Shown here: piece by piece, positions 2,380 to 62,625 of the stretch
How positions within the stretch are numbered: position 1 is the first letter of the stretch
How the letters are laid out: every line of letters starts with the position of its first letter
NCBI GenBank assembly: GCA_964036195.1
Contig: OZ038458.1
Span: forward strand, 6,262,001 to 6,326,000
Length of the DNA stretch: 64,000 bases
Source of the DNA: Sphaerolaimus hirsutus
Taxonomy: Eukaryota; Nematoda; Chromadorea; Monhysterida; Sphaerolaimidae
Reading direction: 5' to 3'
Made by a program: the position numbers and the translations under genes
Notes under the pieces: model-generated
Told to the model about the DNA's origin: nothing
Database searches by the model: none
What the model saw: only the letters and a program-made list of their open reading frames with translations

Positions 2380-2535
2380 GATGATTTGCGTGCGTTTTTT
2401 TCACTCGCCATTTTTGCGTGGAATTTGGTGAAGATCGGTGCGGTTCGCTGTTGTTCATGGCCCTGGGGTGAGCTGGTTCCTGGTAAAGTGCTTTGTTGAG
2501 CTGAGTGATAAATTTCAGATGATAGGGGGTCGATT

Positions 2536-2772
2536 GTGCCTACACACAGTAGTTTTCACCGTGACTTCGTGTGAAAACTGAAAAATTTTCAAATACAAAT
2601 TGACGAACACGGTTGAATGATTTAATTTAATTTAAATTTGAATTTAAATTAATGAAAGTTAAAATTTGAAAACTAAAACACATATAGCATACAATAAGAG
2701 TAGGTGGATGTCGCCATGTCGCCATTTCAGTTTTCACATCGGTCACTGTGAAAACTAGTGTGTGTAGGGCCA
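2536..2772. mobile_element. MITE with CCTACACACACTAGTTTTCAC ends
   Basis: An element of about 235 bp with terminal inverted repeats, left CCTACACACAGTAGTTTTCA and right GAAAACTAGTGTGTGTAGG. It has a second copy at 59251-59460 with the same interior (GAACACGGTTGAATGATTTA, GTCGCCATGTCGCCATT). Non-autonomous, no open frame. Confidence 0.9.
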
Positions 2773-3973: not shown

Positions 3974-4073
3974 ATGGCGCACAGAAATAGGCGGCGGCGG
4001 CGGCAGCAAGCGCTTCGGCGACTGCACATGCGCACTTTGCGGCTGCTCGACGGCAACATCGCTTATGACCTTG
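3974..4073 (+). CDS. KCNQ: KCNQ-like exon 1 (N-terminus, possible start)
   Basis: ATG at 3974 follows AAC, a reasonable Kozak context. It encodes a very basic N-terminus (MAHRNRRRRRQQALRRLH) and then a stretch leading into S1. The donor GTGGGC at 4074 leaves one base, which joins the two bases at 5715 as a Gly codon, so the frame continues into the S1 helix. KCNQ proteins also have a basic segment before S1. Alternative: an acceptor AG at 3983-3984 would make this an internal exon with the true start further upstream. Confidence 0.5.
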
Positions 4074-7000: not shown

Positions 7001-10000
7001 CGCAGCCGCCTTGCTCACACTCGTTCTTGCCGCCGGCGTGTATACATTGGAACAGGGAAGTGCGGATGACCCGTTTGATTCGTTCGGACACGCTCTATGG
7101 TCGAATTGAAAGTGATGTGGATGGGACACGTTGAAATATGGAATCTCTTTTGTGTTTTTGTGTTTCCCGGAATACAGAAACACAGATTTTGTTGTTGGGG
7201 TGTTTTTGTGTAACTGTCTCCCTGGGAATAAGGGAACACAATTTTTTTGGGTGGGAGGTATAACTGTAATACTAGAAGGAACAGAGGAGATAATATACTT
7301 TCACTCTGTGTGAGTGNNNNNNNNNNNNNNNNNNNNNNNNNNNNNNNNNNNNNNNNNNNNNNNNNNNNNNNNNNNNNNNNNNNNNNNNNNNNNNNNNNNN
7401 NNNNNNNNNNNNNNNNNNNNNNNNNNNNNNNNNNNNNNNNNNNNNNNNNNNNNNNNNNNNNNNNNNNNNNNNNNNNNNNNNNNNNNNNNNNNNNNNNNNN
7501 NNNNNNNNNNNNNNNNGTTGGCTTTAGCCATTTTTTATCAGATATACTTCTTTTTGTGGGCCACAGGCCCAAAAGTTTATAAGTTATTGCAAATCAAGCA
7601 AATGCCAAATGTGGCAGTGAGCAATACAATCTATAGTCAAGAAGAAGCCAAATACTAAGATTCAAAAGATTTTCAACCTGACATTTAGAACCTGAAAGTT
7701 ATCACTTGACATTTATGACTTGAAATTACCCACTTGACAATAACTTGACATAAACCACTTGACATTTATGACTGAATGGCATATTTATGACTTGACATGA
7801 ACTGCTTGCCATTTTTTCACCTGATAGTTTTCACTTGACATAAACAACTTGACAGGTATCACCTGAAAATTGTTACTTGACATATTACTTGACATTTGAC
7901 ATGACATTTATCACTTGACATTAAACTTGACATTTCACTTGAAATTTATCACTTGACGTTAAACTTGACATTTGACATGACATTTATCACTTGACATTAA
8001 GCTTGATATTTAACTTGACATTTGACTTGACATTTGACTTGATATTTGACTTGACATTTCACTCTAATTTATTACTTGACATTTCACTTGAAATTTATCA
8101 CTTGGCATTTGACTTGACATTTCAATTGAAAGTTATCACTGTATATTCACCTTGACATTTATAACTTGACATTTGACTTGATATTTGATCACTTGACATT
8201 AAACTTTACATTTGACTTGACATTTCTCACTTGAAATTTGACTTGACATTTATCACTTGAAATTTGACTTGACATATGACTTGATATTTGACTTGACATT
8301 TATGAGTTGACATTAAACTTGACATTTCACTTGAAATTTGTCACTTGACATTTGACTTGAAATGTGTCACTTGACATTTGACATGACATTTGACATTACA
8401 TTTCACTTGAAATTTATCACTTTACATTTGACTTGACATTTGACATGACATTTATCATCTGACATTAAACTTGACATTTCAATTGAAATTTATCAGTTGA
8501 CATTTGACTTGAAAGTTATCACTTGAAATTTGACTTGATACTTTATCACTTGATATTTTATAACTATCTATCACTTGACATTTATCAATTGACATTTCAC
8601 TTGAAATTTATCACTTGACAATTATCACTTGACATTTCACTTGAAATCTACCACTTGACATTTATCACTTGATATTTGACTTGATATTTTATCACTTAAT
8701 ATTTTATCACTAGACATCTATCACTTGACATTTGACTTGACATTTATAACTTGACATTTGACTTGACATCAACCACTAGACATTTATGACCTGATAGTAA
8801 TCAGCATGCAAGGTCACATGCTCAGTATCACATGAAGCAGTAGTTCAGGCATGTTTGCGCATTTTACACAAAATAAGCAAACTTGAATAACTTTTGTAAA
8901 TCTGTACCAAAATTGCCAAAAATTGGCTTATTTGAAAGCTCTAGTCATGGCACACATCAACAAATTTTTTTTATTGCCTCATTTGTATTCAAATTTTAAA
9001 TTTATTGAGGTTTGAAAATTTCAAACAGATACCGTACCAAAGTGGGCGGAGCCTGTGAAAAAAAATTCCGAAAATAAGAAATGGCATCATATTCTCTTTC
9101 AAATGAGCCATCAACCATGAAAATCGGTCGTGTTTCAAGGAAGTTATTGCAGTTTGAAGATTTTCGGGAGAACAAGAACAACAACAACAACAACAAGAAC
9201 ACTACTTGAAAAAGAAAATGCGTAATAACTTCCTCCGAACTCAACCGTTGGATCTGAAAATTTGCATGGTGGTACTTTTCGACACGGGCTTTTTAATGGT
9301 GCAGTCGGTTCTGCACTAGCGCATTGCGTTCCGAAGTTATTGCGATTTTAAATGTGCGATTTCCGCATTTTGGTGTGTCCGACCATATTATGGGTGGGTC
9401 GCTTGCGCCCTCCCTCGGCAGCGAGGGATGGCGCTGGCGCGCCCACCCGATACAATTTTGTTTGGGTGGGAGGTATAACTGTAATACTGGAAGGAACAGA
9501 GTAGATAATACACTGTCACTCTGTTTGAGATGTGAAAACCCAAAGACAATTTACTTCTGAATACACCAACAAAAAAACGAGAGGCCCAAAACACACTAAA
9601 AACACGCATCACCAACCCACCGGTGGGCAGTGATAACCGCCCTAACAGTCGGCTACGGGGACGTGTCGCCGCGCCAGCCGGCCGGAAAGGCTGCCACCGC
9701 CCTGGTGCCACACCCGGACCATGTAAAATGCCTTGGAAAATGTCAAGTGTCATGTCAAGTGTCAAAACTCATGTAAAATACCCGGGAAAATGACGAACAA
9801 CTAGTTAGCATTTTCCCGGGGCATTTTACATGACTTTTGACAATTTACATGGCACTTGACTCTTTACATAACACTTGACACTTGACACTTTACAGGGCAC
9901 TTTACACGGTCTGGTCACGGCCCCCAGCTGTGCGTGCTGTGCGTGTGCGCCTACGGCACCGTGGGCTCGGTGCTGGGCGTGGGCCTGTCGCTCGCCGTGC

Positions 10001-13000
10001 AGGATAGACAGCTGATGAAGCAGCACAACCGATTGAGACCGGTTGGCTGGGTCAACGATTATTTTTTTGGCTTTTGGGTGCTTTTGCGGCTGTGTCGAGA
10101 TTCCATGGCGCCGTTTTTTGTGATTTTTCGAATGCTTCAAATTGTTTATTGACGCATAAGTCTAGTTCGCAGCGGGATGTATCATGTTACACAATGTTTG
10201 TGGTGAAACGTCTGTAATTAGTTGGACAAATTTGGTTGTTTAAAAACCAAATTATGGCGCTAGCGCCAAAATTCCTTGCGCCATTCATTATCACAGGCTG
10301 CAGCTCGATTAATTCAAACCTCATGGCGACAGCACCTTATATTCTCGGAATATGACAAGTGCAGCGAGTGTCACAGTGAACAGTGGGACTGGGAGTATGG
10401 ACGGCCGTGCAGCAGCACCTATTTGCATCGTTTGGCGGGCAGGTGCCAATGATGCATATTGTCAAGTGACGAAATCAAGTGTCAAAAATAGTGATGTGAA
10501 AGCGGCATGGCGCCTGGCGCTAGCGCCGAAGCAAAAAGCGCCATCGCGCTTCTGGCGCTTGGCGCCATTTTACTCTGCCATTGGCGCTTGGCGCTGGGGG
10601 TCGGAAAAGCGCCATGGCGCTTTTTACATCACTAGTCAAGAATAAAGATAACTTTTTATGGTAATTAAAGTGACCAGAAAAACGTTGCCTTCTCATAACT
10701 TCACTTGACACTTGACCTGTCATTTATGACAATTCCTTATATTGAATTGCCAGTGGTCTTATCACAATGTGCGAAACTGGCGCCAGGTTAGAACGGCTGG
10801 AACGGCGCCAACTGCAGCGCCAAGAAAACGTCAAACGGCGCGCCCATTCAGTTGGCGCCGTTTCTATGGTGCGAAGTTTGGCCGGCTCACATCAAACGTC
10901 CATGGTGTCGCTGTTGTTCGCGCCAGCTAAACTGGCCGGCGCGATCAAGGTAAATCGATCGGATTTTTGGGTGAAAATGTAAAAAAATAATCTTTTTTCA
11001 AAGAATTGACAGTTTTACATTTTACACAGACCGCTGAGGGCGAGAGAAGGAACTCCATTCCGAAACTTCCAACCATCACGTGAGCCGAATTCCCCTATCT
11101 CAAAGAACGACAAAAATAAATTTGAACCATTAAAAAATAACAGGGTCACCAGCCCAACGGACCGCAGACACCGTCCAGGTGCCAATTCCGCAAGTGGACA
11201 AATAAAACAAAACATTTGAGAAGTTTGAAGTGAAATGAAAAATGAAATGACAAGTAAAAAGTCAACAGCGAGATAAAATGAAAAGTGAAAAGTGAAATGG
11301 CAGATAAAAAAGTCAACTGTAAGAGCGTTTTTACGATGGGAAAAACACCACCCCACAAAATTTTAGACAAACAAATGCAATGATAATTCACGGAACGTAA
11401 ACTACTATGTATTTTGTGAATTAAATTTGGGCAAACTTTCTCAGACATTACGACGGCTTTTCGACGGCAACGGGGACTGCATGGCATGCACAGCCCTGCA
11501 GTGGGCTGCGCAGTACCCCGTCAGAGCACTGCATCGCAAGATCGACGCCGCTACATGGGCTGACCGAGTTCGCCATGTTTTCTAGTGGTTGTAGTGCTCT
11601 GCACAATTTCGTTTCCTTACCCCCAATTTTAGTTACTGTTTTGTGCGCCAAATCTATTTAAGTCAAATTGGCTAGGTTATGTCTAGCTTAGGCGTAACTG
11701 CATTTCACATGGCATAAGGTGAGAGGGGAATTTCACATTTTCACTTTGAAATGCCGCGGCGCGGCGTGTGGCCGCCTTTGGGCTCGCCGGCACACTGTTG
11801 TGACTCTCTGGGCGGTCTAAAGCACATTCCACCCTTTACTTATCTTTGGGCAGAGGCGGAGACTGACGGCTGATAGGTAGGTGGCGACCGGAAGCCAGGA
11901 ACAATGAATTTCACTCAAAAAAATACAAAAGCACTGTTCCGTGTTCCTCCCCATGTTGACTAGATTGTCGTGCGTCATCTAGTATCGGTGGGTGGTAGGA
12001 ACAGCTTCTGATAATGCCCCAAGTGACAAGTTGCAGTCCAAAAAATGCTTTTCCGCCGCCCTAGCATAAATATCTCCTCGCGCTCGGAAGGGTGTGGCCA
12101 TCGGGCTGAAACCTTTCTCACGGGCGCTAGCTGACCGGATAGTCACAATAGTGGGTCGCGGGGTTGGAGGTGATAAGCATTTCGCGCCCGCGAGCATTTT
12201 CTAGCTACCGTAACTTATGAATATAAAACCCCCAAACAAAGTTTCCATGTGACATGTAGAAATTGTTGTACATATCGTTTCACGCCAATGCCTTTCATTC
12301 CCACGAGCTTAATTAATCGTTCTGTATCTTAATTAATTAGCATTAGTTGTAAGCTTGTGTTAGTTGTCTAATTATTGATTAGCGTAAATTACTGTGTTGG
12401 ATTATGATGCCGTAATTGCCTTTGTACATACTTTGTTCATTCTGTTTTTGTAAATATGCGTTGCACTGCGCTGTTATCTGTTTTAAGTCGTCTTATATTA
12501 GGTAGGGATTTGTAGGTAATTATGGAAGTGAGTAATTGTCGTATCAAGTAAACTTGTGAATTATAGATTAAGCCCCATGTCGCATGAAGCTTTTAATTAC
12601 TTTTGTTAGCTGATATTAATTAATACTCTTTTTTATAAGCAGCTGTGTTACGTACGATTTTACTAAGTGCTTACATCAGAGCTTATGTGATTTGAAAGTG
12701 ATTTTGTAACCTCACAATTTTATGTCTTTTTTAGCTTTTCATTCAAGTCGATTATGGTAGTCTTGATTGCCTTATAAGTAGCCGAAATTGTTTTTCCCCC
12801 CAACTTCGTCGACGCGACGTAAGCTGATTTTGCTTCTACTCTGCCGCTACTGTTCTTCCATCGCCCTAAAAATAAACTCTCTTCTCAACCCAACTTGGAC
12901 CCCTTTTTGTATTGGCACTAAGTACTAACTGCTTTCCCTTAGTTAGCTAATTAACAACTGCTCTAATTGCCGCGCTGCTTATGCTGAGTGTAAGTGCTGT

Positions 13001-15632
13001 GCGTGCTGCGGGAAACGGAACAGCGTGAGCCACCGAGTGGTTCATCGCACGTTCTGAAAAACCTACAGTCTTCGGACACGTTTCCTTAAAATTTACAACA
13101 CGCATTTATAACCTGGACCTCCGGGCCCAGTGCAGCGCACTGCAGCGGCAAGCGGCCGGTGAAGTGGGAATAGAGGGAAAAGTGCGGTAAAAAACCTCGT
13201 GAATCGTGTAGTCGAAAAACAGCTGAATACACGGATTCATGACATCAACAGCAAGGTAAAATGACGGTAAAGTGAGAAGTGAAACGGCAAATAAAAGGCT
13301 AAAAGCAAATGTAACGTGAGAAGTGAAATGAGAGGTTAAAAGTTTACTCCGCAATTGACTTTTTACTTGTCATTTCTCATTTTACTCTCATCTCACTTCT
13401 CAACTGCTCGTTCACACCTCCACTCGCGGAATGGACCGCAGACGACCAGTTGACAATCATCAACGAAACATCAAACGCTTCACTTCTATACAACAGTCAA
13501 ATCGACCATGACAGCGAACGTGAACTGCCGCCGCGACGCTGCCGCTCAGCTTCCGACGCGCCGCGGCCGATGTCGCGTTTGAGCGGCAGCACTGGCACGT
13601 CGCAGACGCAGTCGCGCTCGCAGTCGGGCAGCACCACGCCCTGCAGCCAGTGGGTGCGTGGGGGTTGATGTGCCCTGTTTGAGCGGGTTACCCCCCCCCC
13701 CCCGCACCCCGAAATACCTACAGGGGGCACTCACAGACCCTGTAAAAGACCCTGTAAAATGTCATCTGTCATGTAAAAAACCCTGTAAATAGTCATGTGT
13801 ATCCCAATCTTATTTTATCCGATCATAATAATATGTTTTTGTATCCAAATCTTATGTCAAAAAGTAAGATTTGGATACAACAAAATAATATTTAGATATG
13901 ATAAAATAATATTTGGGTACACATGACACTTAACATGGTCTTTTACAAGACATTTGACACTTTACAGGGTCTTTTACATGACACATGACATTCTACAGGG
14001 TCTTTTGCATGACGCATGACATTTTACAGAGTCTTTTGCATGACACATGACATTTTACAGGGTTTTGATACTGAAAAATACGGGTCTGGGAGTGGCACCA
14101 GGTCTGAGTAAGCTGGGGAACCCTGCTGGAATTAACCCCCCTTAACTGATTGTCCGATTGGCTCGGGATGAAGTAAATTCCTTTGTTCCGTGGAGTTTAT
14201 CATTGTAATGTTGATTCGATTCCATTGACAGTGGAAGGTCAAGTCACGATGTCAAAAAATGTTTGCATACGCAAATCAAATTTCAACCTTGCAAATTTTT
14301 CTCGCATTGCAAGACGGCATTTTTCTCGCATCACGGCAGGGCACTACGATAATGTTACATAAAAAATTATCCCTACCCACAGGGAGCGGAATCCAATCTA
14401 GGCAGCCCCCTGTCCCCATCGGAACAGCCTTCTCTTACGCAAAATACCCGCCAACCCATAGCTGCAAAGTACTGGCTGGCCCTGGTCCCACGTTCAATTT
14501 AAACGTAAGGCGTATGTAAGGCGCTCGATACGTGGGTAAGCCCTGAAATTGGGCGCGTTATGTCGATACACACACTAGTTTACCACCAGTAAACTCAAAA
14601 TCTTGTAAACTCATAAATAAACTTTGAATGGCATTTGAGTTTACTGGAACTAGGTGTTCGTCAACTACAGTTGACGGAAAGTAAAAAGAACCAATTATAG
14701 TGAACTCAAATACATTCAAGCTGGCGTACAAGTTCAAAATGTTTTAAAAATTGCATCAGTAAACAAGTGTAGTAAATAAATACATGTGGTCAATTCATGC
14801 GCACAACTCCATTCACTCACTCACATATCAGTGCCTTACCTACCCTAACCTTCCAATTGGACCTGGCCCCTGGGTGCCGTGTGGTGTCTGCGTAGGCAAC
14901 TAGCCAGCGCTAGGTTCCGCCTAGCTAGGCAACCTTACAGCGAGGTTGATGTGGTAGGCGAGATGAGCGCTGGTACCATGTCGCAGGCGGCTAGGTTGAG
15001 GGAGGTTGGTTCGGGGGGTTGGAGGGGTTTTTTTGTCGGGGGGGGTGGTTGGGTGGTTTGTGTTTGTGTCATTTAAGCGCTGGTTAAAATACACGGTTTT
15101 GGTGTGCTGACAGTGTTTACATCGATTTTTCATTTGTTTTGATAGATTTTTTTTTTTGGGGGGGAGGGGTTCTGGAATTCTGGAAGTTATCTATACACTT
15201 AAAATTCGCAAATTAACCAATCGTCCCAACATATGAGTATCGAATGGATGGAAAACTTCCGGGCAACTTTACACCTAGTTATTTTCAGTATTTTCTTTTA
15301 TGTCTACCTTTACTAAATTCCAAAGTCGACCTAGGCTAAACTTCTACCATATTTTACTTTCTTTTCTCTAACTTTATTTTCCAGTCTCCGAAATGGCAAT
15401 TCATTTCTGTACTAGAACTGTTTTTCGCTTACGCAAAAACATTTCCTCGTAGCTGCAATTACAATTGGATCGAGTGTTGGGAAAAGATTCAACACATCAT
15501 TGGCAAGGTGCCAGCGTCGTTGGTCGGCTTGAAAAACTGGAGCAAAAGTTGGCTGAAATGGATCAATCCATCGAAACCATCAACAAATTGGCTGTCAGAA
15601 TTGTGAAAATGAATAAAGTGAATGGTGTTTGA
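3974..15632 (+). CDS. KCNQ: KCNQ-like voltage-gated potassium channel subunit, divergent (gene model, 11 exons)
   Basis: Joined exons: 3974-4073, 5715-5925, 6308-6436, 6929-7100, 9624-9704, 9928-10041, 10333-10442, 10787-10949, 13450-13649, 14896-15004, 15453-15632. All junction phases agree, giving about 522 residues and a TGA stop at 15630-15632. Known KCNQ proteins are plasma-membrane tetrameric K+ channels with S1-S6, a pore loop and cytoplasmic helices A-D that bind calmodulin and drive assembly. Seen here: an S2 with ELIFRLW; S3; an S4-like LLLLLRLLHFDR; S5 with VHRRELIAAYF; pore WAVITALTVGYGD (residues 205-217); S6 ending GVGLSLAVQ; helix B/C RLARQPYSEVDVV; and a C-terminal coiled coil RLEKLEQKLAEMDQ. 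It is shorter than vertebrate KCNQ (about 650-870 residues). Odd: S4 charges, the PAG hinge and the helix A core are lost, and the exon 4/5 junction lacks an AG acceptor. Family assignment is firm from S5 on; exons 1, 8 and 9 are inferred. It may be a non-conducting or voltage-insensitive paralogue, or a decaying gene with an intact frame. Confidence 0.82.
4103..4250. repeat. TGACATTT foldback element
   Basis: Left arm CACCCTGTAAAATGTCATGT, right arm CATGACATTCTCCAGGGTG; palindromic. It sits just after the donor of KCNQ exon 1. Confidence 0.75.
4508..5437. mobile_element. GGCGCC-armed foldback transposon, ancestral-type copy
   Basis: Ends TAGTGATGGAATGGCGCC and GGCGCTTTTCCATCACTA. Arms (4508-4720 and 5195-5437) are arrays of GGCGCC-centred words such as CATGGCGCCCTTGGCGC. 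The AT-rich core is homologous to that of 20272-21548 but lacks its inserted 640-bp element. No transposase. It lies in KCNQ intron 1. Confidence 0.92.
5715..5925 (+). CDS. KCNQ: KCNQ-like exon 2 (S1-S2 and linker)
   Basis: The acceptor TTTGCCAG ends at 5714. The frame reads GIIALIGMVLSL (S1) and later AGVLLAELIFRLW (S2), matching the KCNQ S2 pattern E-x3-R-L-W. The donor GTACGT at 5926 gives an S2-S3 linker close to family length. A second phase-compatible donor, GTTGGG at 5896, would shorten the linker, so the exon end is less certain than the exon itself. Confidence 0.7.
6060..6182. repeat. GGCGCC-armed fragment
   Basis: GCGCCAAGCGCCA-type words ending in TTCCATCACTA, the right end of the TAGTGATG family. 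It lies in the KCNQ exon 2/3 intron. Confidence 0.75.
6308..6436 (+). CDS. KCNQ: KCNQ-like exon 3 (S3-S4)
   Basis: The acceptor CTTCCCTCAG ends at 6307. It encodes S3 (TLADLVVACGAVALVF) and an S4-like helix HHSELLLLLRLLHFDR. Against KCNQ S4, the first two gating arginines become His and Glu, Gln-3 becomes Leu, one Arg is kept, and the final H-x-D-R of KCNQ1 is present. The donor is GTGCCA at 6437; CG plus A restores Arg at the junction with exon 4. Confidence 0.8.
6500..6914. mobile_element. Poly-C foldback element (TACCGTAAATCCTCGAATAA ends)
   Basis: Left TACCGTAAATCCTCGAATAA plus C runs; right TTATTCGAGGATTTACGGTA. It occupies most of the KCNQ exon 3/4 intron (6437-6928). Confidence 0.9.
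6929..7100 (+). CDS. KCNQ: KCNQ-like exon 4 (S4-S5 linker, S5, turret)
   Basis: The acceptor ATCACACAG ends at 6928. It encodes WHTVERLITVHRRELIAAYF, then a hydrophobic S5, then GSADDPFDSFGHALW. This matches the family pattern [20 protein letters not shown] and the turret before the pore helix. It is the strongest KCNQ match in the N-terminal half. The 3' boundary is ambiguous by one base (7099 with donor GTCGAA, or 7100). Confidence 0.9.
7235..7316 (+). repeat. Direct repeat, left copy
   Basis: The stretch with GGGTGGGAGGTATAACTGTA, AAGGAACAGA and CACTCTGT recurs with few changes at about 9447-9527. The two copies bracket the N gap, the satellite and about 0.6 kb of other sequence. Confidence 0.85.
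7317..7516. other. Assembly gap (200 N)
   Basis: A run of N inside the intron between KCNQ exons 4 and 5, next to a tandem satellite, which probably broke the assembly. Confidence 0.99.
7676..8800. repeat. TTGACATTT-type tandem satellite
   Basis: About 1.1 kb of irregular repeats of ACTTGACATTT with variants (TATCACTTGACATT, GACTTGATATTT). The unit is 11-22 bases and imperfect. The same word builds the arms of the TGACATTT foldback family elsewhere in the window, so the satellite looks like an expanded arm. It lies in the KCNQ exon 4/5 intron. Confidence 0.95.
8800..9446. other. KCNQ intron stretch, nothing recognised
   Basis: AT-rich intronic DNA with a (CAA)n microsatellite near 9177-9195. 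A minus-strand open frame here has a poly-Leu tract from that microsatellite and no other protein-like feature. Confidence 0.5.
9447..9527 (+). repeat. Direct repeat, right copy
   Basis: Second copy of the 80-bp repeat at 7235-7316 (CAATTTTGTTTGGGTGGGAG onward). It suggests a duplication or a target-flanked insertion of about 2.2 kb within the KCNQ intron. Confidence 0.85.
9624..9704 (+). CDS. KCNQ: KCNQ-like exon 5 (pore helix and selectivity filter)
   Basis: It reads WAVITALTVGYGDVSPRQ and then AGKAATAL. TVGYGD is the K+ selectivity filter and the flanks match KCNQ (W-G-L-I-T-L-T-T-I-G-Y-G-D-x-x-P). Homology puts the start at 9623-9624, but the preceding bases are ACCG/ACCGG, not AG. The nearest AG (9629-9630) breaks the frame. 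The donor at 9705 is GTGCCA. Confidence 0.88.
9705..9927 (+). mobile_element. TGACATTT foldback element forming an entire KCNQ intron (introner candidate)
   Basis: The intron is the element from end to end. It starts GTGCCACACCCGGACCATGT and ends ACGGTCTGGTCACGGCCCCCAG; these are the inverted ends of the family whose consensus is about CTGG(T/G)GCCACTCCCAGACC then CTGTAAAATG. The two halves pair around a loop near 9791-9806. CTG flanks both sides. Confidence 0.85.
9928..10041 (+). CDS. KCNQ: KCNQ-like exon 6 (S6 and start of C-terminal domain)
   Basis: The acceptor GGCCCCCAG ends at 9927. It encodes S6 (LCVLCVCAYGTVGSVLGVGL) and then SLAVQDRQLMKQHNRLRP. It aligns without gaps to KCNQ S6 and the F-A-L-K-V-Q-E-Q-H-R-Q-K-H segment. 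The Pro-Ala-Gly hinge is replaced by Val-Gly-Ser. The donor at 10042 is GTTGGC, phase 0. Confidence 0.88.
10333..10442 (+). CDS. KCNQ: KCNQ-like exon 7 (degenerate helix A region)
   Basis: Chosen because its phases fit both neighbours (phase 0 in, phase 2 out) and because PHLIFSEYDKC and HSEQWDWEYGR resemble the family's L-I-Q-S-A-W-R-F-Y and H-S-T-W-Q-Y-Y-E-R. The aromatic and basic core of the calmodulin-binding IQ-like helix A is not kept. The acceptor GGCGACAG is weak; the donor is GTGCCA at 10443. Another frame of the same bases contains AAAPICIVWRA, also helix A-like, but its phases do not fit. Confidence 0.5.
10489..10634. mobile_element. GGCGCC-armed MITE with 8-bp target duplication
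   Basis: Ends TAGTGATGTGAAAGC and GCTTTTTACATCACTA; flanks GTCAAAAA (10481-10488) and GTCAAGAA (10635-10642), one mismatch. It lies in a KCNQ intron. Confidence 0.9.
10787..10949 (+). CDS. KCNQ: KCNQ-like exon 8 (A-B linker, basic)
   Basis: The acceptor ACTGGCGCCAG ends at 10786 and the strong donor AAG|GTAAAT is at 10950. It encodes a charged stretch (LERLERRQLQRQENVKRR) then SLLFAPAKLAGAIK. The A-B linker is poorly conserved in KCNQ, so there is no direct family match; it is placed by phase, position and donor quality. Confidence 0.5.
11000..13449. other. KCNQ intron 8, mostly unexplained
   Basis: 2.5 kb of intron. Apart from GAAGTGAAATG repeats near its two ends, I see AT-rich DNA (12200-13000 is rich in TTAATTA) and a short CpG-rich stretch near 11755-11800. 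No coding signal. Confidence 0.5.
11160..11330. repeat. GAAGTGAAATG foldback fragment
   Basis: Contains GTGCCAATTCCGCAAGTGG followed by GAAGTGAAATGA words. Related ends occur near 13270-13430, 22105-22312, 26985-27350 and 52990-53140. Confidence 0.6.
13450..13649 (+). CDS. KCNQ: KCNQ-like exon 9 (Ser/Arg-rich linker)
   Basis: GC-rich against AT-rich flanks. It encodes a low-complexity linker with PPRRCRSASDAP and a Ser/Thr/Gln-rich run. The start at 13450 (after ACCAG) and the donor GTGGGT at 13650 satisfy the phases of exons 8 and 10. If donor GTGCGT at 13654 is used instead, an unseen exon must lie between this one and helix B. Confidence 0.5.
13730..14110. repeat. TGACATTT foldback element, complex
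   Basis: Left GGGGCACTCACAGACCCTGT, right GGGTCTGGGAGTGGCACC. A smaller palindrome (CCCAATCTTATTTTATC / GATAAAATAATATTTGGG) is inside. It lies just after the donor of KCNQ exon 9. Confidence 0.88.
14896..15004 (+). CDS. KCNQ: KCNQ-like exon 10 (helices B and C)
   Basis: It encodes QLASARFRLARQPYSEVDVV and then EMSAGTMSQAARLRE. The family pattern is K-x-K-F-x-x-A-R-K-P-Y-D-V-R-D-V-I-E-Q-Y-S-x-G-H-L, so the calmodulin-binding helix B and the helix C start are recognisable. The acceptor is GTCTGCGTAG (ends 14895); the donor is GTTGGT at 15005. Confidence 0.85.
15453..15632 (+). CDS. KCNQ: KCNQ-like exon 11 (helix D coiled coil, C-terminus)
   Basis: The acceptor CCTCGTAG ends at 15452. The exon opens LQLQLDRVLGK, completing the family's R-I-K-E-L-Q-R-R-L-D-Q-T-L-G-K across the splice. 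It then encodes the tetramerisation coiled coil VVGRLEKLEQKLAEMDQSIE, matching the KCNQ pattern R-L-x-x-V-E-x-K-V-x-x-M-D-x-K-L. Stop TGA is at 15630. A candidate AATAAA lies near 15826. Confidence 0.9.
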   Translation: MQLQLDRVLGKDSTHHWQGASVVGRLEKLEQKLAEMDQSIETINKLAVRIVKMNKVNGV

Positions 15633-15789
15633 AAAAGCTTGACGCCATGGTGCCTGGCGCTTTTCCATTAACACCTCCTCTAGTGATGTCACCACGGCGC
15701 CCTTTACTCTATAACCCTTAATTTTTATCCTCTAAAGAAATTATCACAGTCTAAAATGTGGCAAAAATGTCGAAATGTCTAAACGTGGC

Positions 15790-15932
15790 AGTCCCGCACT
15801 CTGTAAAGTGTCATGGCAATTGTGTCAATAAAAACAAAAAGAGAAAAGATCCTATTACTGAACGTTTGACACTTTACATGGCATTTGACGAATTTTTATG
15901 ACATTTTACATAACACTTTACAGGGTGCGGAA
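15790..15932. repeat. TGACATTT foldback element
   Basis: Left GGCAGTCCCGCACTCTGTAA, right TTTACAGGGTGCGGAACTGC; palindromic, just 3' of the KCNQ stop. Confidence 0.85.
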
Positions 15933-18350
15933 CTGCCCGCAGGGGAGTATTCAAGGAATTGGGGCATTTCCCTCTTCCCCCACTAAACGCAACTTTACGA
16001 CAATTGTGACGCATGTGCCTAGATAAACACTTGAGTTTTCTGGAACATTCGATCCAATTGTGGCAAATTGAAAGTGGTAGCAAGAAGTATCCAATTATTT
16101 TGTGCATACAAAATACGTAATTACCGTGTATCCTTGAATATGTCATCCAATGATTTTCCCTGTATCATTCACTGGTACTCTGCGGATCGCATTAGGTATG
16201 CTCCCAAAAATACTTAAATAGGTATGTCTTTTGTCGATAACACTCGAGCAGGATACTTATGAATGCAGTTTCACAAAAAAAATTGTAAAAAGAAAAAAGC
16301 AGAGCCGGCTACAACCAACATCTTTCATGGCTGAAATAATTTAAAATTCTTCAATTAATGATGACGTCATGATGGAGTATTTTCATCAGAACATTGCATA
16401 GCATGTGACCTGCAGAGCATAGCCGCGTCATTCGAGGGGGGCTTATTCAAGAGTATACGGTAGTGAGGTGCTCGTGTGTGCTGTGCAGCGCTTTGCTTTG
16501 CTGCGGCAATATCATGTGCTCATCTGTGATTGCTTTTTTTATATTTAAGCTTGCGTTATTTTCGCACTTGTGCCAAGTCTCGTTATTGTTAAAAATATGT
16601 ATTTAGCTTGCTCTTAGTGGACCCTGTCACATTCATTCGTATAAAGATGGATTTACAGCACAACGACAAATAAAAGGTGAAATGACAAAAAATGTCACCG
16701 ATAAGTTCAGTATTTTCATGTTTTCAAGTTTTTTTGTTGAAAATTAGCGTTTAATACTCCAATTTAAATGGAAAATTTATCATATGGGAGATGTGAATGA
16801 AAATCGTTGGATGAATGATGGTCCACCGACAAATCAATTTCACATTAACGCCCTAAAATCAATGGGTAATGCTCTGTTTAGGTTACCTTCACATTTCAAT
16901 GCCAATGGCTTTTACAACTCAAATGAAAGTAGTCGACAAATTTGCAGAAATTGAAGCAATTGAAGCATAGAAGAAAATGTGTCCAAAATTATCACTATAA
17001 ACACATCGCAGATACTAATCTCGAAATGGTATCCATCGCGTATTTGTGAACCAGTTGTGACCGGTTTTTATAGAGAACTTGTATTTGCACAATTTTTTAT
17101 CGAATCAAATTACTTCATGCCTTGTTGTAGTGAAGAATTCACATTTTGGAATGTTCGACAAGTGTTTACCTGTGGAAAATTACATTAAATGCTGCTCGCA
17201 TGCCGATTTTTTCCAATATTGCGCCGAAAAATATTTTTGCGCCATTTTGAGTAAACTGCGCCTTTTTGCGACGTAAGTGGACTGTTGGAATTTTGCCAAA
17301 TTTTCGAAATGATTTTGAAAAACCACTGCCCAAAAACCGCCAAAATAGAAATGCGACATACGATTATCAGATTCAAAATTATAATGACAGACACCATATC
17401 ATTTTTGACAGAATCGAATGGACATAGCAATGTAAAAGCGCTATGGCGCAGGAGCAAATATCACAGAGAAAAATGGCGCCAGGTGGAAATGTTGTCATGG
17501 CGCTGAGTTACCTATTTCGTTCCGTTAAGTGGCGCCAGCTCCGTGGCGCCATTCCATCACTAATGGTAAAATACTAATTTGGAACGTTTCCCACGCAATT
17601 TTGTCAGATAACTGCGCACATTCGTTTCAGTTCAGTGGCTGTTTTTATATGACATTGTTATGATACGAGCTGTGTTTTTAAAGGCGTATTACCGTAAATC
17701 GTATAATGTTCCTCAAAACCCACTTTTTCGGTGATGAAACACAAGCAAAATATCATGCCAACTTTAAAACTTCAAAGAAGTTGACTAAATGCCAATATTT
17801 CGAGAAAAATGCTGTTACAGTGGTAGGTATTTCTATTTTCTTCTTCGCACTATATTTAAGCTAGGTATTAAAAACAAACCAGTACATAATACATGACGAA
17901 AACATTCATTTTTTTATTTATCACCTATGATTGTTATCTCACAGAGTCAGTTAAAAATACCTATTTTTAACCATCTCATTTCCAGCTGTCTCCATGCAGC
18001 TGTCCCACGCGGTTTTCATTACACATGTGATTTTTATGTAAAGACACGATTAATGTATGGAACTTGCGAGTTGTGACGTGAGATGTCTTCAAACCGTTAA
18101 CCTGTTATTTTGCGTCATTTGACTCTTTTGGTCCATCCAGAATTACCGGGACAGTTGGTAGATTTTTGTTTCACCAGCTTAAAACATACATAGATGGCTA
18201 AAAATGTGTCAACTTCTGAAAGTTGATATGTCTGAGAACGGCAAGGTTGCCCTGAGAACTGAGTTAGGCATTATGTATTTATTCCCCCCACTTTTGACCA
18301 CTGTAAAGTCATTACTGTATTTGTCCTAAGTTAAAGTGCTAAGTTTTGAC
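15933..18350. other. Gene-poor stretch, little recognised
   Basis: AT-rich. It contains a poly-C/G family end near 16430-16462 (TTCGAGGGGGG, TACGGTA) and a GGCGCC-family right end at 17440-17566 (GGCGCCATTCCATCACTA). Short open frames look random. Confidence 0.5.
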
Positions 18351-21548: not shown

Positions 21549-21556
21549 TACACGAC

Positions 21557-22312: not shown

Positions 22313-23685
22313 GCTCGAATGACTCACTCATTGCAAACTCTCCAGCCAAAAAAACTGGATGGAAATGGAATATAACAACTTTTTCTAACTCCCTTGTGGA
22401 ATTATTTATGTATTTACAAAATATGTAATGAGCATCCACTTACAAGTGTCTTGACTAGTAGCATATTGACAGATTATTTTGTGAATAAAATGTTGCTTAT
22501 ACAGTGAATTTGTTAATATGAATGTGGTTGAATACATATCAGAAAACAAGGCCCCTTGATAATTCCCATGAATGGTTCCCACTAAAAAAGATGTCTGGCT
22601 AAAAGATAATCTCTCAGGGCTCAGGGGAACTAATCAGTTCTTACTAATAATAGTTCAGTTGTAATATGAGTATTTATGGTAATTCAGTTCAATTCTATAG
22701 TAAAACCTATGATGAATTCACATGCATGTGCCTGGCATCATTTTTCCTGGCACTTTTCTATCCTAGTCAGCAGTAGAGAAGTCTTTCAAATCATATTTAT
22801 GTGTTTTTATGATTTGCATTGACTGTTTCACACCTTTACTGATGATTCAATAAAAATTACTTTTGGTTATTAAAATATCATTAGGAGAACTATTAAAAAA
22901 TGTTAATATTTTAAGTAGAATGTGAATAAGATATCACCAAAAAATATTTTTTACATGAAATATTGTTACTCTGCCATCCCTGTTCTAACTACGTTGTTTA
23001 TTTGTCTGGACTCACTACATATTACGCGCATTATTTACTTGTTTACTATTTGCACACAGATTTCGAATTGAATGGAATGATGTTTTACGCGAATTCATTC
23101 AAAACTTCATCGTGTATTTAGGTTTCCTAAGGAAACTTTGGCAGTTTAAGACGTTTTTGTGACGTCCGCAGTCAGATGTGCGTGTCTCTATTTACCTTGA
23201 TTCAGTTTTTCATTTTGCATTTGCTCTTTTTCCATTTGGCAATCCGGAGAATAAAATGCACAAAAGGATTTCCCATCATTTCGCATTTTTCTCGCGTTTT
23301 CAGCCTTGACTTTTTAAAGTGCTAATTTTTTTGAGGGATAATGAGCTTGGCATTTTTTGTTCACCGATTGTCTTTTTTTGTTTGCCTTGTTTGTCGAGCC
23401 CGCGCGATCTATTCTTGGAATTTTTGGCTGACAACTCAAAAGTTAAGGCTTGGAAATACTAAATAAATATTTACTACAGTTTTAAAAACATAGCTTTTAA
23501 ATATTATTTGTCATTTAATTATTTGTACCCGACTTACTGTACCCAACTTATGTAGGTATATATCTAACTTCTGAACCCACATCAAATGACTTCAATCAAA
23601 TTTAATTAATTAGCAACTCCCTGCTTATGCAAAACATGCAACGTAACAAAAAAGGAACTAAAGTCACATTTTGCTTGTCAGGGGG
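22313..23685. other. Gene-free stretch, nothing recognised
   Basis: AT-rich DNA with no coding signal or clear repeat. Confidence 0.5.
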
Positions 23686-23820
23686 CAGTCCCAAGCCCTG
23701 TAAAGTGTAAAGTAAAGTGTCAAATGTAAAGTCAAATGCAAAGTCAAGTGTCATTTGACATTTGACTTTACATTTGACACTTTACTTTAAACTTTACAGG
23801 GCTTGGGACTGGCACCAGGT
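23686..23820. repeat. TGACATTT foldback element
   Basis: Left CAGGGGGCAGTCCCAAGCCC, right GGGCTTGGGACTGGCACCAG; a near-perfect hairpin. Confidence 0.92.
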
Positions 23821-27026: not shown

Positions 27027-27207
27027 ACTGGGGGTACTCCCTGACCTTGTAAAATGTCCTGTAAAATGGTAAATGTAATGTAAAGTGTCTAAGTCATGTA
27101 AAATTCCATGTAAAATGGTAAACTTCGTTACAATTCACATTGCATTTTACATGACTTTTGACACTTTGCATTACATTTGCCATTTAACATGGTCTGAGAG
27201 TGGCACC
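27027..27207. repeat. TGACATTT foldback element
   Basis: Left CTGGGGGTACTCCCTGACCT, right CATGGTCTGAGAGTGGCACC. It sits between GAAGTGAAATG-family fragments (GTGCCAATTCCGCATTTGG at 26988). Confidence 0.9.
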
Positions 27208-27209
27208 TA

Positions 27210-28110
27210 ACTGCCACGTGATTTTATAAATGTGAATTCAAATGATAAGCAAACTTATCGAATACATTACTTGCCACTTAACTTACCGCATTACTTCACT
27301 TAACACTTATCACGTTATCACTTATCAGGTTGCAAGAATTGGCCCCGAATCGAACAGAATTTTCCGGGACGCGCTGCAATTTTTTTCTTTTTTCCAGTGA
27401 TAATGCGCGGCGTGACGTATCAAGGAACACCTGGTAATTTTACCACACTTGACGCATATAAATAAGGTGCGAAATGATAAAACGGGTACTTTTAAGTCTA
27501 GCTCAGACATATTTAGGTTTCATCATTTAATTTCATAATTATTTTTCCGATTTACTTTTTAGTATTTCGATTAAACGATTAATCCTCAATTTCGATTCAT
27601 TTCTCCTTACGTTTTGCTGAGTTACTTAAATTTACGTTTCTCAGGTATTTTAAAAATAGCTTACATTAACGTTTTCCGTTAACTTGTTAGGAAAATGGAT
27701 TGGGGCAAATGGGTCATTCCCCTTTGAAAAAGTTTGAAAATGCCACATCACAGCTGCTTTGTTTTGCGCAACGTATTAGGTACTTACTCAGTTAAACATT
27801 GGGACACATTAGACAACGAAATTTTCACTTAACGTAAAATCTATGTATTTTACGTACATACATATTTAGGTACATTTTTATATGCAAAAGAGTGGTAGTG
27901 CTGATTGATCGTTTTTGTCTGAGAAGTTACCTACTTAAATACTTACTTATTTACGTACGAAAATACGACACTTGTTTTTCGCACGATTTACACGGTGTTC
28001 ATCCCTCCTATATTCGTAGCGAATTACTAAATAATAAATTAATACTCAATACTAATACTAAATAATAGATAAAAAATACCATGTCAAATCGACTCAAATC
28101 AAATCACAGT
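27210..28110. other. Gene-free stretch, nothing recognised
   Basis: AT-rich, with TACGTA-rich runs between 27780 and 27960. Confidence 0.5.
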
Positions 28111-28117
28111 ATATCAA

Positions 28118-28273
28118 GTGCCACCCCCAGACCTTGTAAAAAGTCATGTAAAATGTGAAATGTCATGCAAAGTGGCAAAAGTCATGGAAAATGCCCTGGA
28201 GTTGCCGAGTTGCCATTTTGCAAGGCATTTGACATTTTACAGAGCTTTTTACAGGGTCTAGGAGTGTGCCCCC
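28118..28273. repeat. TGACATTT foldback element
   Basis: Left AGTGCCACCCCCAGACCTTG, right ACAGGGTCTAGGAGTGTGCC. Confidence 0.9.
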
Positions 28274-28597
28274 AAGACTCTAGTCGAATTATGTCGCATT
28301 GCACTGCACAGCACAGCGACCACTCTTACAGATTTCACTGCAGCGCTTATATGTAGGTATTCATCTTAGATCTGGCTCCGGCGTTAGCACTTTTTCGCTT
28401 ACATTTGCATTTGGGTCCGTAGGATTCTAACCCATATATTTCGAGTCCATAGGATTCCGTCCCACAGTTAATGAATTAACGTTTGATTCGGTTCCACATG
28501 ATGTACCAAAGCGTTTTGATTTGCTAAAAATTAGTGTTGGATTTGGATATATGCCAGAAAAACGGCCGATCGCCAAGCCGCCAATGGTGCCACCATT

Positions 28598-34599: not shown

Positions 34600-35160
34600 T
34601 GCCCCCCGTGCTCTTTGATGTGTATCTGATCGAAATCATGCGCCTTTGAAAATTAAAATGCCGCCCGCTGCTGGTTTGTTACCGTTGGCCGGGTAGATTG
34701 GTACGATCCGGGTTTCGGTCCGGTGGAATCGAGCTTTTCTATGCGCGGAATTTACCGGGTTAAGTTGCCGGATTGTTGCACAAGTGATTTACGTTTGGCT
34801 GTTCTTGAATCAGTTTCGCGTACAGTTACTGTTTCAATGCAACTTGATTTACATTTAGGTACATCTCTTATCGCTTGATTGGATAAAGAATTGGCCCCTG
34901 GGATCTTATTACAATTCCGAGTTTCTTGTTAGGGACCTCAAAGCGAGGTATTTGAATTCAAGGAAATTTGCTGTTAATTATAAAATATCTCGAGAGGGGG
35001 TTCGAATCTGCATAACCCCTTAAATCCAGACAAAGGTACTGAACAATCCAAGTGACCAATCACCACCCAAAGTCAAGCAAATTCTATGCAAAAATCAGCC
35101 AAATTCCATGCAAAGATTCTGCAAAAATCATTCCAAGCACACTTCATCTAAGTCACTGCA
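34600..35160. other. Gene-free stretch, nothing recognised
   Basis: AT-rich; a short GC-rich stretch at 34660-34760 without a useful open frame. Confidence 0.5.
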
Positions 35161-35161
35161 T

Positions 35162-35296
35162 GGGCACTCCCAGACCCTGTAAAAAGCCCTGCAAAATGTA
35201 AAATGTCATGCAAAGTGTCAAAAGTCATGGAAAATGCCCTTCAAAATGGCAAACGTTTACAGTTACATTTTACAGGGTCTGGGAGTTACACCATGT
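35162..35296. repeat. TGACATTT foldback element
   Basis: Left GGGCACTCCCAGACCCTGTA, right TTTTACAGGGTCTGGGAGTT. Confidence 0.92.
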
Positions 35297-35626
35297 GCTA
35301 TAAATATGTAAATGACTCCAAAAATTAACTTCCATCTGTTCTATATCCGTCTGCTTATCAAATTCCAATCACTATAAAAAACCCTCCCAAATTAGCCTCA
35401 AGTCAGTCCCGTTTTACATATGTACGTTCCAGTTACCCAGATGGGGGTCGCGCAAAGGGAAATTGCGTGCGCCGGTCAAAATAAAAATGACGATACAAAA
35501 TAGTCTAGTTTCGGGTGCGTCATTCAGCCCACATCGAACTAGAAGCCCTACTGATCGCACGCAATAACCCATGAATGGGCATTGGCCAGTATATAAACCG
35601 CCGCCTACGCACGTTTTTCATGCTGG

Positions 35627-35807
35627 AGGCAGTCCCGGAGCCTGTAAAATGACTTGTCAAATGTCAAATGTCAAGCAAAGTGTCAAAAGTCATGGAAGAT
35701 GCAATGGAAAATAACAATGAGTGCACTTTGCTTTCCAGGGCATTTTACATGACTTTTAACTTTTCGCATGAAATTTCACATTCTACAGGCTCTGGAGTTG
35801 GCTCCTG
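35627..35807. repeat. TGACATTT foldback element
   Basis: Left GGAGGCAGTCCCGGAGCCTG, right CTACAGGCTCTGGAGTTGGC. G-run arrays follow at 35813-35855. Confidence 0.9.
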
Positions 35808-35859
35808 CAAATTGGGGGGGGGGGGTACTCACCCATGTCCACGACAGGGGGGGGGGGTT

Positions 35860-38778: not shown

Positions 38779-38986
38779 GCTCAGTGAGTCACTCCCAGAC
38801 CCTGTAAAATGCCCTGTAAAATGTCAAATGTCATGCAAAGTGTCAAAAGTCATGTGAAATGCCCTGCATTCCCGAAATGCCCTGCAACTCGGTTGCCATC
38901 TTGCAGGGTATTTCACATGACTTTTGACACTTTGCACGACATTTGACATTTTACAGGGCATTTTACAGGGTCTGGAACAGCCCCCA
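38779..38986. repeat. TGACATTT foldback element with flanking AGTGAGTCAC on both sides
   Basis: Left TCCCAGACCCTGTAAAATGC, right GGGTCTGGAACAGCCCCC. AGTGAGTCAC occurs at both flanks (38781 and 38986 regions), a likely target duplication of 7-10 bp. Confidence 0.88.
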
Positions 38987-39143
38987 GTGAGTCACGACTT
39001 TAAGACCTTCATGATTCGATTTTTACGCCGCTCTGCCGTCAGTTTAACGGATCATTTCGCGGTGCGCAAATGACGCGTTTTTTTTTGTTTTTTTTCGAAG
39101 CGCCGCCCGGCTATCTGGTTTTTGCAATCCGATCAGAGTCAGG

Positions 39144-49092: not shown

Positions 49093-52000
49093 GTACGGTT
49101 CGGGTGTTTGATTGATGAGTGGGAAATTTCTTGAAGGGTGGTAGATACCCGACGGAAAACATGTATCATGGCGCGATTAAACACAATATTTGTGAGAGAT
49201 TGCTCATTGCGCATAACAAAATACGATGAAAGCTTCAAAATTTTTGATTATTTTAACAGGCTCAATTAACTTCGCTTTCGGCCCACACATACACACACAC
49301 TAGTTGACATCGCAAAGAAATGTCAACTGAATGTCAACTCAATAACACAAAAAGATTTTTCAAGCATCACACTTGACAGAAACAATGAAAAAAAGTGTCA
49401 CGATACAAAAAAATTGAAATCACATAAATAACCAAATTTAGTTGACACAAAATTTGACGTGAACTAGTGTGTGTGGGTGGGCCCTTCGAGCAATAAAACA
49501 ACAAACCTAAAACACACCGCAACCCCCCATTTCAACCCCCCCCCCAGGTGCGCACCCTGCGCGCGGTGCTGCACGAAACGTTCGAAGTGCACGGCAGCCG
49601 GTGCGCCACGGGCAGCGGCCACCGCTGGCCCACCCTGTACGTGCGCCTGCGCGAACTGGTCAACGCCATCCGGCAGAGGCTGGTGGCCGCCGGCCTGCCC
49701 GCCAGGGGCGTCAAGTTGAACGGCGGCGCCGCCAGTCATATACTCGCCGCCGGCGAGTTTCCATTCTCCGATGTGGATCTCATTTTTCACGTGCCCCTCA
49801 GTACGACCGCCGATTTCGATAAGGTGGGTTTTTGGGGAGGTTTTTCGGTGGTTGGGGTATTTTGGTTGAGGTACCGCACACTGTGAAGTGTCGAATGGCA
49901 TGTGAAATGACATACCTACATGTTTGTCAGTTGTCATGCAAATGTTCAGTAATAAAATCTCTTTCGATTGACATTTTACACTTTACAAGGTGCGGGATTG
50001 CTCTAGGTTGTGTTTGAATTTTGTACATGAGGGATGAAATAATATGTTGGCCTGACAGCCCTTTGGATTTCACTTTGGATCGCAAGATTAATCACGTCTG
50101 AATCGCGCACGGGTATCATTATCACCCGCTGCCATCACAAACAACCATATTACATCGGGCAGGGTATTATCTCGAATTCAATAAATCGGGATGCCCGAAG
50201 TAAGAGTCGGGTAAAGTGAATTTCGGGCCAAATTAACTGATTGTCATAAACATCACAGGTGCGCGACATCGTACTGGACGCACTGCATGCATTTGTACCG
50301 GCGAACGTTTCATCGGCAGTCGACAGGAATACACTTCGGTTGGTTGATATAAACGAAATGCCTCTGAGTGGTTTCGATTTAATTGTATTTTGATGGGTGT
50401 AATCTTTGTAGGCTAACTTGCCATACACATGAAACGAAAGTGCTATTAAAACTGATAAAAACGCTACAATATCCTTAACTGTCACCAGTGACAAATTCCA
50501 GTGCCCTCCCCATCATTTACCCACCACCCACAAGGGTTAAAATGATCTACCAAATGGTAAAATAGTAAGCAGCACTTTTCACACCAAAAATCCAGCACAG
50601 ACAGCAAAATAAACCACAAAAAACACTAACACCACCCAACCCACAAAACCCCCCAACTAATCACCACAACTCAATTACCCCCCCCCCCCCGCAGCGAGGC
50701 GTACATGCGCAAGATGGTCAAAGTGTGCTCTGGGGCCGACCGCTGGTCGCTGTTCTGCGTGAACAACGACAGCGGCCGCTGCGTCGAATTGAAGTTCGTC
50801 GACCGGTGCCGCCGCGGCTTCGAGTTTTCAGTTGACAGTTTCCAGTTGACATTGGACCGGCTGCTGGACGAGCAGCAGGGCGGCGCGGCGGCCGCCGGCG
50901 ACAGGTGCCCGCTCGTGCTGGCCGAGAGTATGTATGGCGATTTTAAGGTGGGTTGTGGGTGGGATTGGACGCAACTTTGTGGAGTGGTTTACTGACTGGA
51001 TAATTTCAAATTTAATTAGCCCATCTGGTGCCACCATCCCCAGACCCTGTAAAATGTCAAACGTAAAGTGTCAAAAGTCATGTAAAATGCCCTGTAAAAT
51101 GCCAAAAGTCCAGTAAAAAATAACATTTGACCTTTTACAGGGTCTCGGAGTGACCGCTGAACAATGTCATTGAATACGAAGTTTTCAAATTACCCTATCC
51201 ATCAAAAAACATTCTCAAAAAGATTCTCAAAAACATTCTAAATAACATTCTCAAAAACATTAGGTGCTTTCAGTCAGTAAATAGGAGTTTTTTTACCGCG
51301 TATGAAACAGTTTATGCAGAAATCGCGATCGATTTTCACTAATAAATTATTTACTATATGACAAAGCACATATTTTGCGGGGCAGTCGTAATTGACAAGT
51401 AAAATAAAGTTAAAGTGAAGTATGAAAAAAGTGACAAGTTTTTCACTTTCCCAACGCGCACACGTACAAAAAAAAGAAACCACTCAAAACAACCCCCCTC
51501 AACCCCCCCCCCCCTCAAAACGCAGACAGCAGTGCGTCATCTAGACGAGCGTCTGATCGACACGCGGCGGCCGGAAGAGATCCGCGGCGGGGGTCTTTTG
51601 AAGTATTGCGCCCTGCTGACGCGCGGCTACAGGCCGGCCAAGCCGTGGAAGTGCAGGCAGCTCGAGCGCTACATGTGCTCGCGCTTCTTCATCGACTTCC
51701 CCGATGTGCGCACGCAGGTCTGTGGTTTGGGGGCACTCACAGGCCCTGTAAAATGTCAAATGTCATGCAAAGTGTCAAAAGTCACGGAAAATGCCCTGCA
51801 AAATGGCAAACGTACGTAGCCATTTTACAAGGCATTTTCCATGACTTTTGACACTTTGCATGACATTTTACATTTTACAGGGCTTTTTACAGGGTCTGGG
51901 AGTGGCGCTGGGGTGGTGTTTTGATATTATAAATATTTTTGTGGGGCGAAATATTCACCCATAATAATTGCGATGAATTTGCGAATTTCAAAATTTTAAA

Positions 52001-62489: not shown

Positions 62490-62625
62490 GGTCCGGGACC
62501 GCCCCCAGGCCCAGACCCTGTAAAATATCACACAAACTGCCAAGTCATGTAAAATGGCAACACGGTTGAAATTTCACAGGACATTTAGGTAACAGGGTTC
62601 GGAACCGCCCCCAGGACACCCCACA
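62490..62625. repeat. TGACATTT family element, decayed
   Basis: Left CCGCCCCCAGGCCCAGACCC then TGTAAAAT, right AACAGGGTTCGGAACCGCCC. Confidence 0.7.

Follow-up and report, generated by a model that had tools for sequence, protein, structure and literature searches.

A foldback DNA transposon family whose copies coincide with probable introns in the nematode Sphaerolaimus hirsutus

The window analysed here is a 64-kb stretch of DNA (C14:6262001-6326000) from a genome of 348.5 Mb in 762 contigs. Contig C762 carries the mitochondrial COX1 gene, which has 14 in-frame TGA codons and reads through with the invertebrate code (table 5). In the window, the pore and S6 exons of a KCNQ-like gene are separated by a predicted intron at 9705-9927 (Table 1), which reads directly as ...GCCCTG (9704)/GTGCCACACCCGGACC...GGTCTGGTCACGGCCCCCAG (9927)/CTGTGCG. 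The intron sequence is an inverted repeat with longest arms of 69 nt that are 78% complementary. Its computed RNA fold reached -101.4 kcal/mol, whereas 200 shuffled versions averaged -48.0 (z -12.8) and none of them was as good. Joining 9704 to 9928 gave a 60-residue pore-S6 stretch that matched Pfam Ion_trans_2 (3.7e-6) and, in a PDB search, aligned without gaps to 57 residues of KCNQ1 (E 3.9e-5). The original prediction, that a foldback transposon makes up this whole intron, was borne out by the inverted repeat, the fold, the presence of both termini and the gap-free join: the intron consists of one foldback element plus a target-duplication CAG. The outer boundary of the element comes from a by-eye alignment to its family; the motif search placed the end one base off, at CCA, and for the frame and orientation analyses below it was set by hand. 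It had also been stated that CTG flanks both sides. This is true of the letters, but the CTG at 9928-9930 belongs to the exon and not to the duplication, as the gap-free joined protein indicates. The two copies of the target at this intron are not identical (CTG left, CAG right).

Table 1. Features of the KCNQ-like intron and copies of the repeat family (family A) in the window
Feature	Position	Strand	Remarks
KCNQ-like pore exon (..LTVGYGDVSPRQPAGKAATAL)	9631..9704	+	start inferred from CAG acceptor; Ion_trans_2, KCNQ1 matches
CTG, left CWG target copy, last exon codon	9702..9704	+	
Foldback element, family A; GTGCC end upstream, GGGGC-type end downstream	9705..9924	+	
CAG, right CWG target copy, putative AG acceptor source	9925..9927	+	register by eye; gap-free join
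KCNQ-like S6 exon (LCVLCVCAYGTVGSVLGVGLSLAVQDRQLMKQHNRLR..)	9928..10041	+	end approximate
Family A copy with further insert	13720..14102	.	
Family A copy, degraded	15781..15943	.	
Family A copy, CAG both sides	23678..23819	.	
Family A copy	27027..27210	.	
Family A copy	28114..28274	.	
Family A copy	35157..35295	.	
Family A copy, CTG both sides	35622..35808	.	
Family A copy	38782..38988	.	
Family A copy, degraded	51024..51160	.	
Family A copy, apparently within longer TENT5-like (TENT5/FAM46-like) intron	51726..51912	.	gene named by reading
Degraded relative	62498..62615	.	

The lowest E-value for the pore-S6 join in the PDB search belonged to MthK (29 residues, 1.1e-5), ahead of KCNQ1, and the name of the gene therefore rests on modest similarity; matches across S6 were to KCNQ chains only. 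In human KCNQ1, exon 6 presumably comprises codons 308-344, so its borders lie elsewhere than the site of the present intron, near 331/332.

To describe the repeat family (family A), a profile was built on 50 arms taken from the 30 best matches in the genome, the KCNQ copy among them. This profile gave 12 paired copies in the window, the KCNQ copy included, and 33 arm hits, in fair agreement with the predicted number of about 15. Regularly spaced stretches of C1 and C2, 200 kb together, contained 13 paired copies. The consensus of 48 copies is 190 bp long and near-palindromic, with one GTGCC end and one GGGGC end, and the TIR ends read GTGCCASTCCCAGACC. The genome-wide search was made with exact 27-base end patterns of three kinds and detected CTG-GTGCC 830 times, CAG-GTGCC 1039 times and CTG-GGGGC 998 times, while reversed-pattern controls gave 0 hits. 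Exact GT ends alone thus number approximately 1,900, and a 31-base version of the end occurs 115 times. On C1, exact GT ends paired with an exact CTG-GGGGC end in 15 cases and with another exact GT end in none, showing that the elements have polarity. Among 56 sampled elements, 44 had one GT end, five had two and seven had none. Family A is a MITE family: it is short and has long TIRs, a target duplication and a high copy number.

Sequence identity of the KCNQ copy to the 48-copy consensus is just 79.5%, compared with 89-95% for most copies with coding flanks. This low value could suggest that an ordinary KCNQ intron resembles a repeat by chance, but the match is full length and includes both termini, and the hairpin is far outside the shuffled range. 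Together with the exact-end counts and their empty controls, which refute it, this leaves chance a negligible probability. The KCNQ copy is an old family member. Of the predicted "active or recent" intron generator, "recent" is apt for the family, many copies of which lie within ~5-10% of the consensus, but not for this copy.

Other repeats were observed along with family A. The copy at 51726-51912 starts within the longer intron noted in Table 1, a few bases past its apparent donor. Pairs of family copies at most ~1.3 kb apart were found in coding-looking sequence at three loci (L028, ~1489/2501; L011, ~189/1507; L023, ~436/1483). A second repeat family is present at 22103-22313 in the window and at loci L031, L044, L045 and L049; it has the outer terminus CWGG(T/G)GCCAGT in common with family A but then reads TTCCGCAAAATGAGAAGTGAGAAGTGAAATGG. 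A tandem-like array of TCACTTGACATTTGACTTGAAATTTA units at 7660-8790 resembles the inner part of the element. Repeats rich in GGCGCCATGGCGCC are located at 4489-5461 (with a period of ~74 nt), 20276-20337, 21434-21554 and 39165-39347.

The ends of the copies were then compared. CWG stood at both ends in 37 of 61 family A pairs, and the two trinucleotides were identical in 29 of these 37. The combinations were CAG/CAG (15), CTG/CTG (14), CTG..CAG (6, one of which is a composite of two elements at L044) and CAG..CTG (2). The KCNQ and L003 copies, both CTG..CAG, are outside the 37, their end having been set one base off. Over all 67 pairs, identical end trinucleotides were found 31 times, whereas 2000 shuffles gave a mean of 18.0 and a maximum of 27. 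On C1, a sense-right CAG was accompanied by a left CAG in 11 of 15 cases and by a left CTG in four, with the two left ends equally common there (96 and 94). Genome-wide, GT ends were preceded by CAG more often than by CTG (p 1.5e-6). Such an excess is as expected if CAG copies are favoured; insertion bias would also explain it.

Among PIF/Harbinger-related (PHIS) transposons, the NuwaI group is defined by a 3-bp CWG target duplication and reported mainly from animals (PMC4482050), and family A has the same 5'-CWG-3' duplication. We infer that it is probably mobilised by a PIF/Harbinger-related transposase of the NuwaI type. The genome contains 163 matches to the Harbinger-type transposase domain DDE_Tnp_4. 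The single readable locus, a Harbinger-type gene at L039, was rejected as the autonomous partner because it is not flanked by family A TIRs. This multi-exon transposase-like gene (~4250-6945, minus strand) has at least 10 further matches of near-equal score elsewhere in the genome, and its first gap is an element of the same foldback kind at 6550-6747 with arms that are 94% complementary. In more than 100 places, near-identical DDE_Tnp_4 matches cover 147 positions over ~633 nt, mostly with 4 TGA; each looks as if it holds an insert of ~190 nt, the size of an element plus target site.

These features suggest how an insertion could become an intron. A non-autonomous hairpin DNA transposon (MITE) with a 3-bp CWG duplication would insert into an exonic CAG or CTG and place the GTGCC of one terminal repeat directly after the left CWG, creating the donor CWG/GTGCC. 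The duplicated CWG would remain at the other end of the element and could serve as acceptor if it reads CAG. Splicing out the element plus one CWG would restore the original coding sequence exactly. The idea that the element ends supply both splice sites would accordingly hold for the GT, which comes from the TIR, whereas it is the duplicated CAG target, rather than the inverted end, that would provide the AG.

Next, the reading frame across the elements was analysed. Ends were set for 55 elements, and 75-nt flanks were scored by codon-position GC and purine contrast, with the nearest 15 codons free of stops. Both flanks were above threshold 5 in 16 elements, and after subtraction of the element and one CWG, frame offsets 0, 1 and 2 were found in 15, one and none. 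Among random control points, 234 of 3978 passed, with offsets distributed 89, 69 and 76. Eleven of the 16 elements lie at the loci that most resemble the KCNQ copy; the other five are those that passed among the 21 copies of the window and the regular stretches, and 4 of these 5 were in frame. Lower thresholds weakened the result (19, 2 and 3 of 24 at threshold 3; 28, 7 and 10 of 45 at threshold 0), and the 39 of 55 elements below threshold 5 need not be introns. A plain open-frame test was useless, with offsets 0, 1 and 2 performing alike at 40 codons (30, 29 and 20 of 64), an outcome that the GC-rich flanks presumably explain. Counts of 15, 2 and 3 of 20 at threshold 5 came from a codon score trained on a set chosen by eye, so we rely on the untrained test.

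Proteins joined across the elements were compared with Pfam. Matches spanning the junction were obtained for a Kv channel (L006, 7.5e-25), HSP70 (L044, 1.1e-27) and DUF7799 (L028, 1.5e-20). A K2P-like channel (L030) matched Ion_trans_2 at 2.7e-6, barely spanning the junction, and two junction-spanning matches were below the Pfam cut-off (TMCC, L021, 1.8e-4; 7tm_1, GPCR-like, L011, 6e-4). The joins at L016, L024, L029 and L004 had weak or non-spanning matches only, and at E 0.1 Pfam gave no match for 9 of the 20 joined proteins. Element ends thus coincide with predicted intron borders in the HSP70, Kv, DUF7799 and KCNQ-like genes and, more weakly, in the GPCR-like, TMCC-like and K2P-like genes. 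Several copies fit gaps between coding segments exactly, rather than never matching intron boundaries, the outcome named beforehand as speaking against the original prediction.

The cleanest case is HSP70 at L044, where four exons, with two such introns among their gaps, join into 163 residues that align without gaps to a heat shock cognate (PDB 4hwi, 9.9e-77). The intron between ERL and VGDAAK is a whole element with the ends CTG/GTGCC...GCCGCCTG/. The other intron, of 691 nt, contains a nested further copy; it begins ACCAG/GTGCCACCCGCGGACC and ends GGTCTGGGAGTGCCCCCAG/. Both places are also interrupted in a duplicate gene at a distance of 8 Mb, and both members of the pair are on C2. In a Pfam scan of the same genome, other HSP70 loci were uninterrupted, eight at the first position (one such exon carries a stop) and at least six at the second (outside these six are two further stop-carrying exons, one with a longer stretch). 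They are paralogous empty sites and point to probable intron gain at two HSP70 positions in this one genome. A 29-base junction pattern, with up to 3 mismatches allowed, had only two hits in the genome, the two duplicates, which differ there by one base. The pair therefore retains one copy at the same site, a CTG site (it would be a GT..TG intron). The duplicate has two TAG codons in one aligned stretch (316-403), where perhaps an intron was read as exon. At L044, a copy of the second repeat family begins directly after an HSP70 exon (GDTHL/GTGCCAGTTCCGC; minus strand near 240).

The empty sites also bear on the possibility that older introns existed at the element sites and were later replaced or filled by the element. 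The copy at 51726-51912, apparently within a longer intron, would fit such a history. Against it, both element ends coincide with exon ends, the CWG duplication is common to exon and intron, and HSP70 paralogues have unbroken exons where the split genes carry the element, which makes replacement very unlikely.

Alternatively, the exonic copies could be unspliced MITE insertions of an ordinary, recent kind in genes that are damaged, redundant or polymorphic. Since an insertion with target duplication restores the frame on removal regardless of splicing, frame restoration is trivial in this case and alone is not decisive. Such damage would also agree with the absence of AG in 7 of 15 in-frame copies by the automatic call, and with the two TAG codons of the HSP70 duplicate. 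Orientation, which should be random for unspliced copies, gave a different picture. Among 13 in-frame copies with differing ends, the GT end was upstream in the gene in 12 (p 0.003), and it was upstream in all seven copies lacking AG (p 0.016; L002, one of the seven, is probably misregistered). At threshold 3, the GT end was at the donor in 15 of 17 cases. The exceptions, in which the donor on the chosen strand was the non-GT end, were L018 (threshold 5) and also L014 (threshold 3); the set included one placeholder, the L044 composite, which failed the threshold. Moreover, copies 5-20% off the consensus occur within otherwise open exons, the HSP70 pair retains the same copy with the same right end, and some gene regions have more than one copy (L011, L023, L028, L044). 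The orientation bias, the age of copies in open exons and the shared HSP70 copy favour splicing over damage, and we regard unspliced insertion as improbable. In view of how the elements are built and how many there are, of their target duplication, orientation bias and exact in-frame fit within conserved genes, and of the empty HSP70 sites, the best explanation, and in our opinion a highly probable one, is that the KCNQ intron is an introner of a family with exact in-frame exon insertions; we infer that the elements are removed by the spliceosome.

The 3' ends of the elements deserve separate consideration. At the right end, the 15 in-frame copies had CAG (7), CTG (4), TAG, CTA, CCG or AGG (one each), and six or seven of them lacked AG at the expected acceptor position; the right end of L002 is probably misregistered, so its AGG should not be counted, although the copy stays in the frame and orientation numbers. 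In HSP70, no register of the repeated border yields GT..AG, and stopping at the inner acceptors leaves the frame unrestored (hand count on the sequence). Other acceptors were considered. The inner TTTTACAG acceptor, used with the outer GT or the inner GTAAAA donor, adds 1 modulo 3 nt and loses the frame, whereas combining the inner donor with the outer end preserves the frame and again leaves TG as the 3' terminus (hand base count on the consensus). In L007 and L017 the frame survives if a downstream AG is used, at a cost of few codons, making these weak non-AG cases. In HSP70 the first downstream AG is at 20 nt and out of frame, and in the GPCR-like gene it would remove approximately 26 codons. 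An in-frame excision that would require a non-AG 3' end is found in HSP70 and the DUF7799 gene, and more weakly in the GPCR-like gene. For HSP70, either the spliceosome would use TG or the copies would be imperfect alleles.

The CTG..CAG copies (KCNQ, L003, L021, L030 and L039) could have arisen by a later T to A change at the acceptor, although a CAG/CAG copy whose exon codon had changed from A to T would be indistinguishable from them. Taken further, this leads to a tentative proposal, to which we give somewhat less than an even chance: a large class of hairpin introns may be removed with GT..TG, GT..TA and GT..CG ends. An insertion into CWG on either strand would then be an intron instantly, the hairpin would draw the ends together, AG would be optional, and a right CTG could mature to CAG. 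In the GT..TG reading, the introns of KCNQ, L003, L021 and L030 would already have matured. No part of this work is more surprising, or less certain, than the non-AG subset.

In the regular stretches of C1 and C2 (200 kb), four element introns were counted as candidates: a pair in one HSP70 gene, of which one is a composite, and, on weaker evidence, those of L033 and L039. Extrapolation by hand gives roughly 7,000 element introns in the genome (Poisson range ~1,900-18,000, the events not being independent). The family has probably made a number of introns here, probably thousands.

A survey of DNA-transposon introners describes 548 families with 5 to >2,000 copies and, among 835 animal and land-plant genomes, reports introners in two groups only, both animals (PMC9860276). 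Like family A, the surveyed introners are described as non-autonomous, with TIRs and a short target duplication, mostly leaving mRNA length unchanged, and in the legend of its Fig. 2C the element carries the 5' site while the 3' site is co-opted from the target (PMC9860276). Set against that survey, family A is an animal family with CWG duplications, a long hairpin and ~1,900 exact GT ends, in which six or seven of 15 in-frame copies lack AG. Introner elements of the dinoflagellate Amoebophrya likewise have hairpin IRs that join the exon ends, border direct repeats and many non-canonical ends; their ends are reportedly very varied and lack a family-specific IR motif, and the authors rule out general transposase-driven movement (PMC7789003), in contrast to the one family with a nearly constant GT end described here. 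In another animal, the larvacean Fritillaria borealis, a large share of introns also breaks the GT/AG rule and <10% reportedly keep GT/AG (PMC13326754), whereas in family A the 5' GT is kept and the 3' end alone varies. In 36 human genes, TG has been verified as a substitute for AG at alternative 3' sites of U2-type introns (PMC2374985); in family A, TG would be the sole in-frame acceptor. No CWG or Harbinger-type animal introner was named in the open-licence titles and abstract openings covered, and one open-licence paper, on fungal introns, contained both "introner" and "Harbinger"; this is weak evidence of novelty.

The origin of spliceosomal introns is a long-standing question, and few animal cases have been caught in the act. 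Here, one family in one animal offers insertions of different age, in which intron gain, splice-site maturation and loss can be followed, and in HSP70 uninterrupted paralogues stand beside genes split by the element. The copies without AG would be a natural test of how far an animal spliceosome depends on the AG rule.
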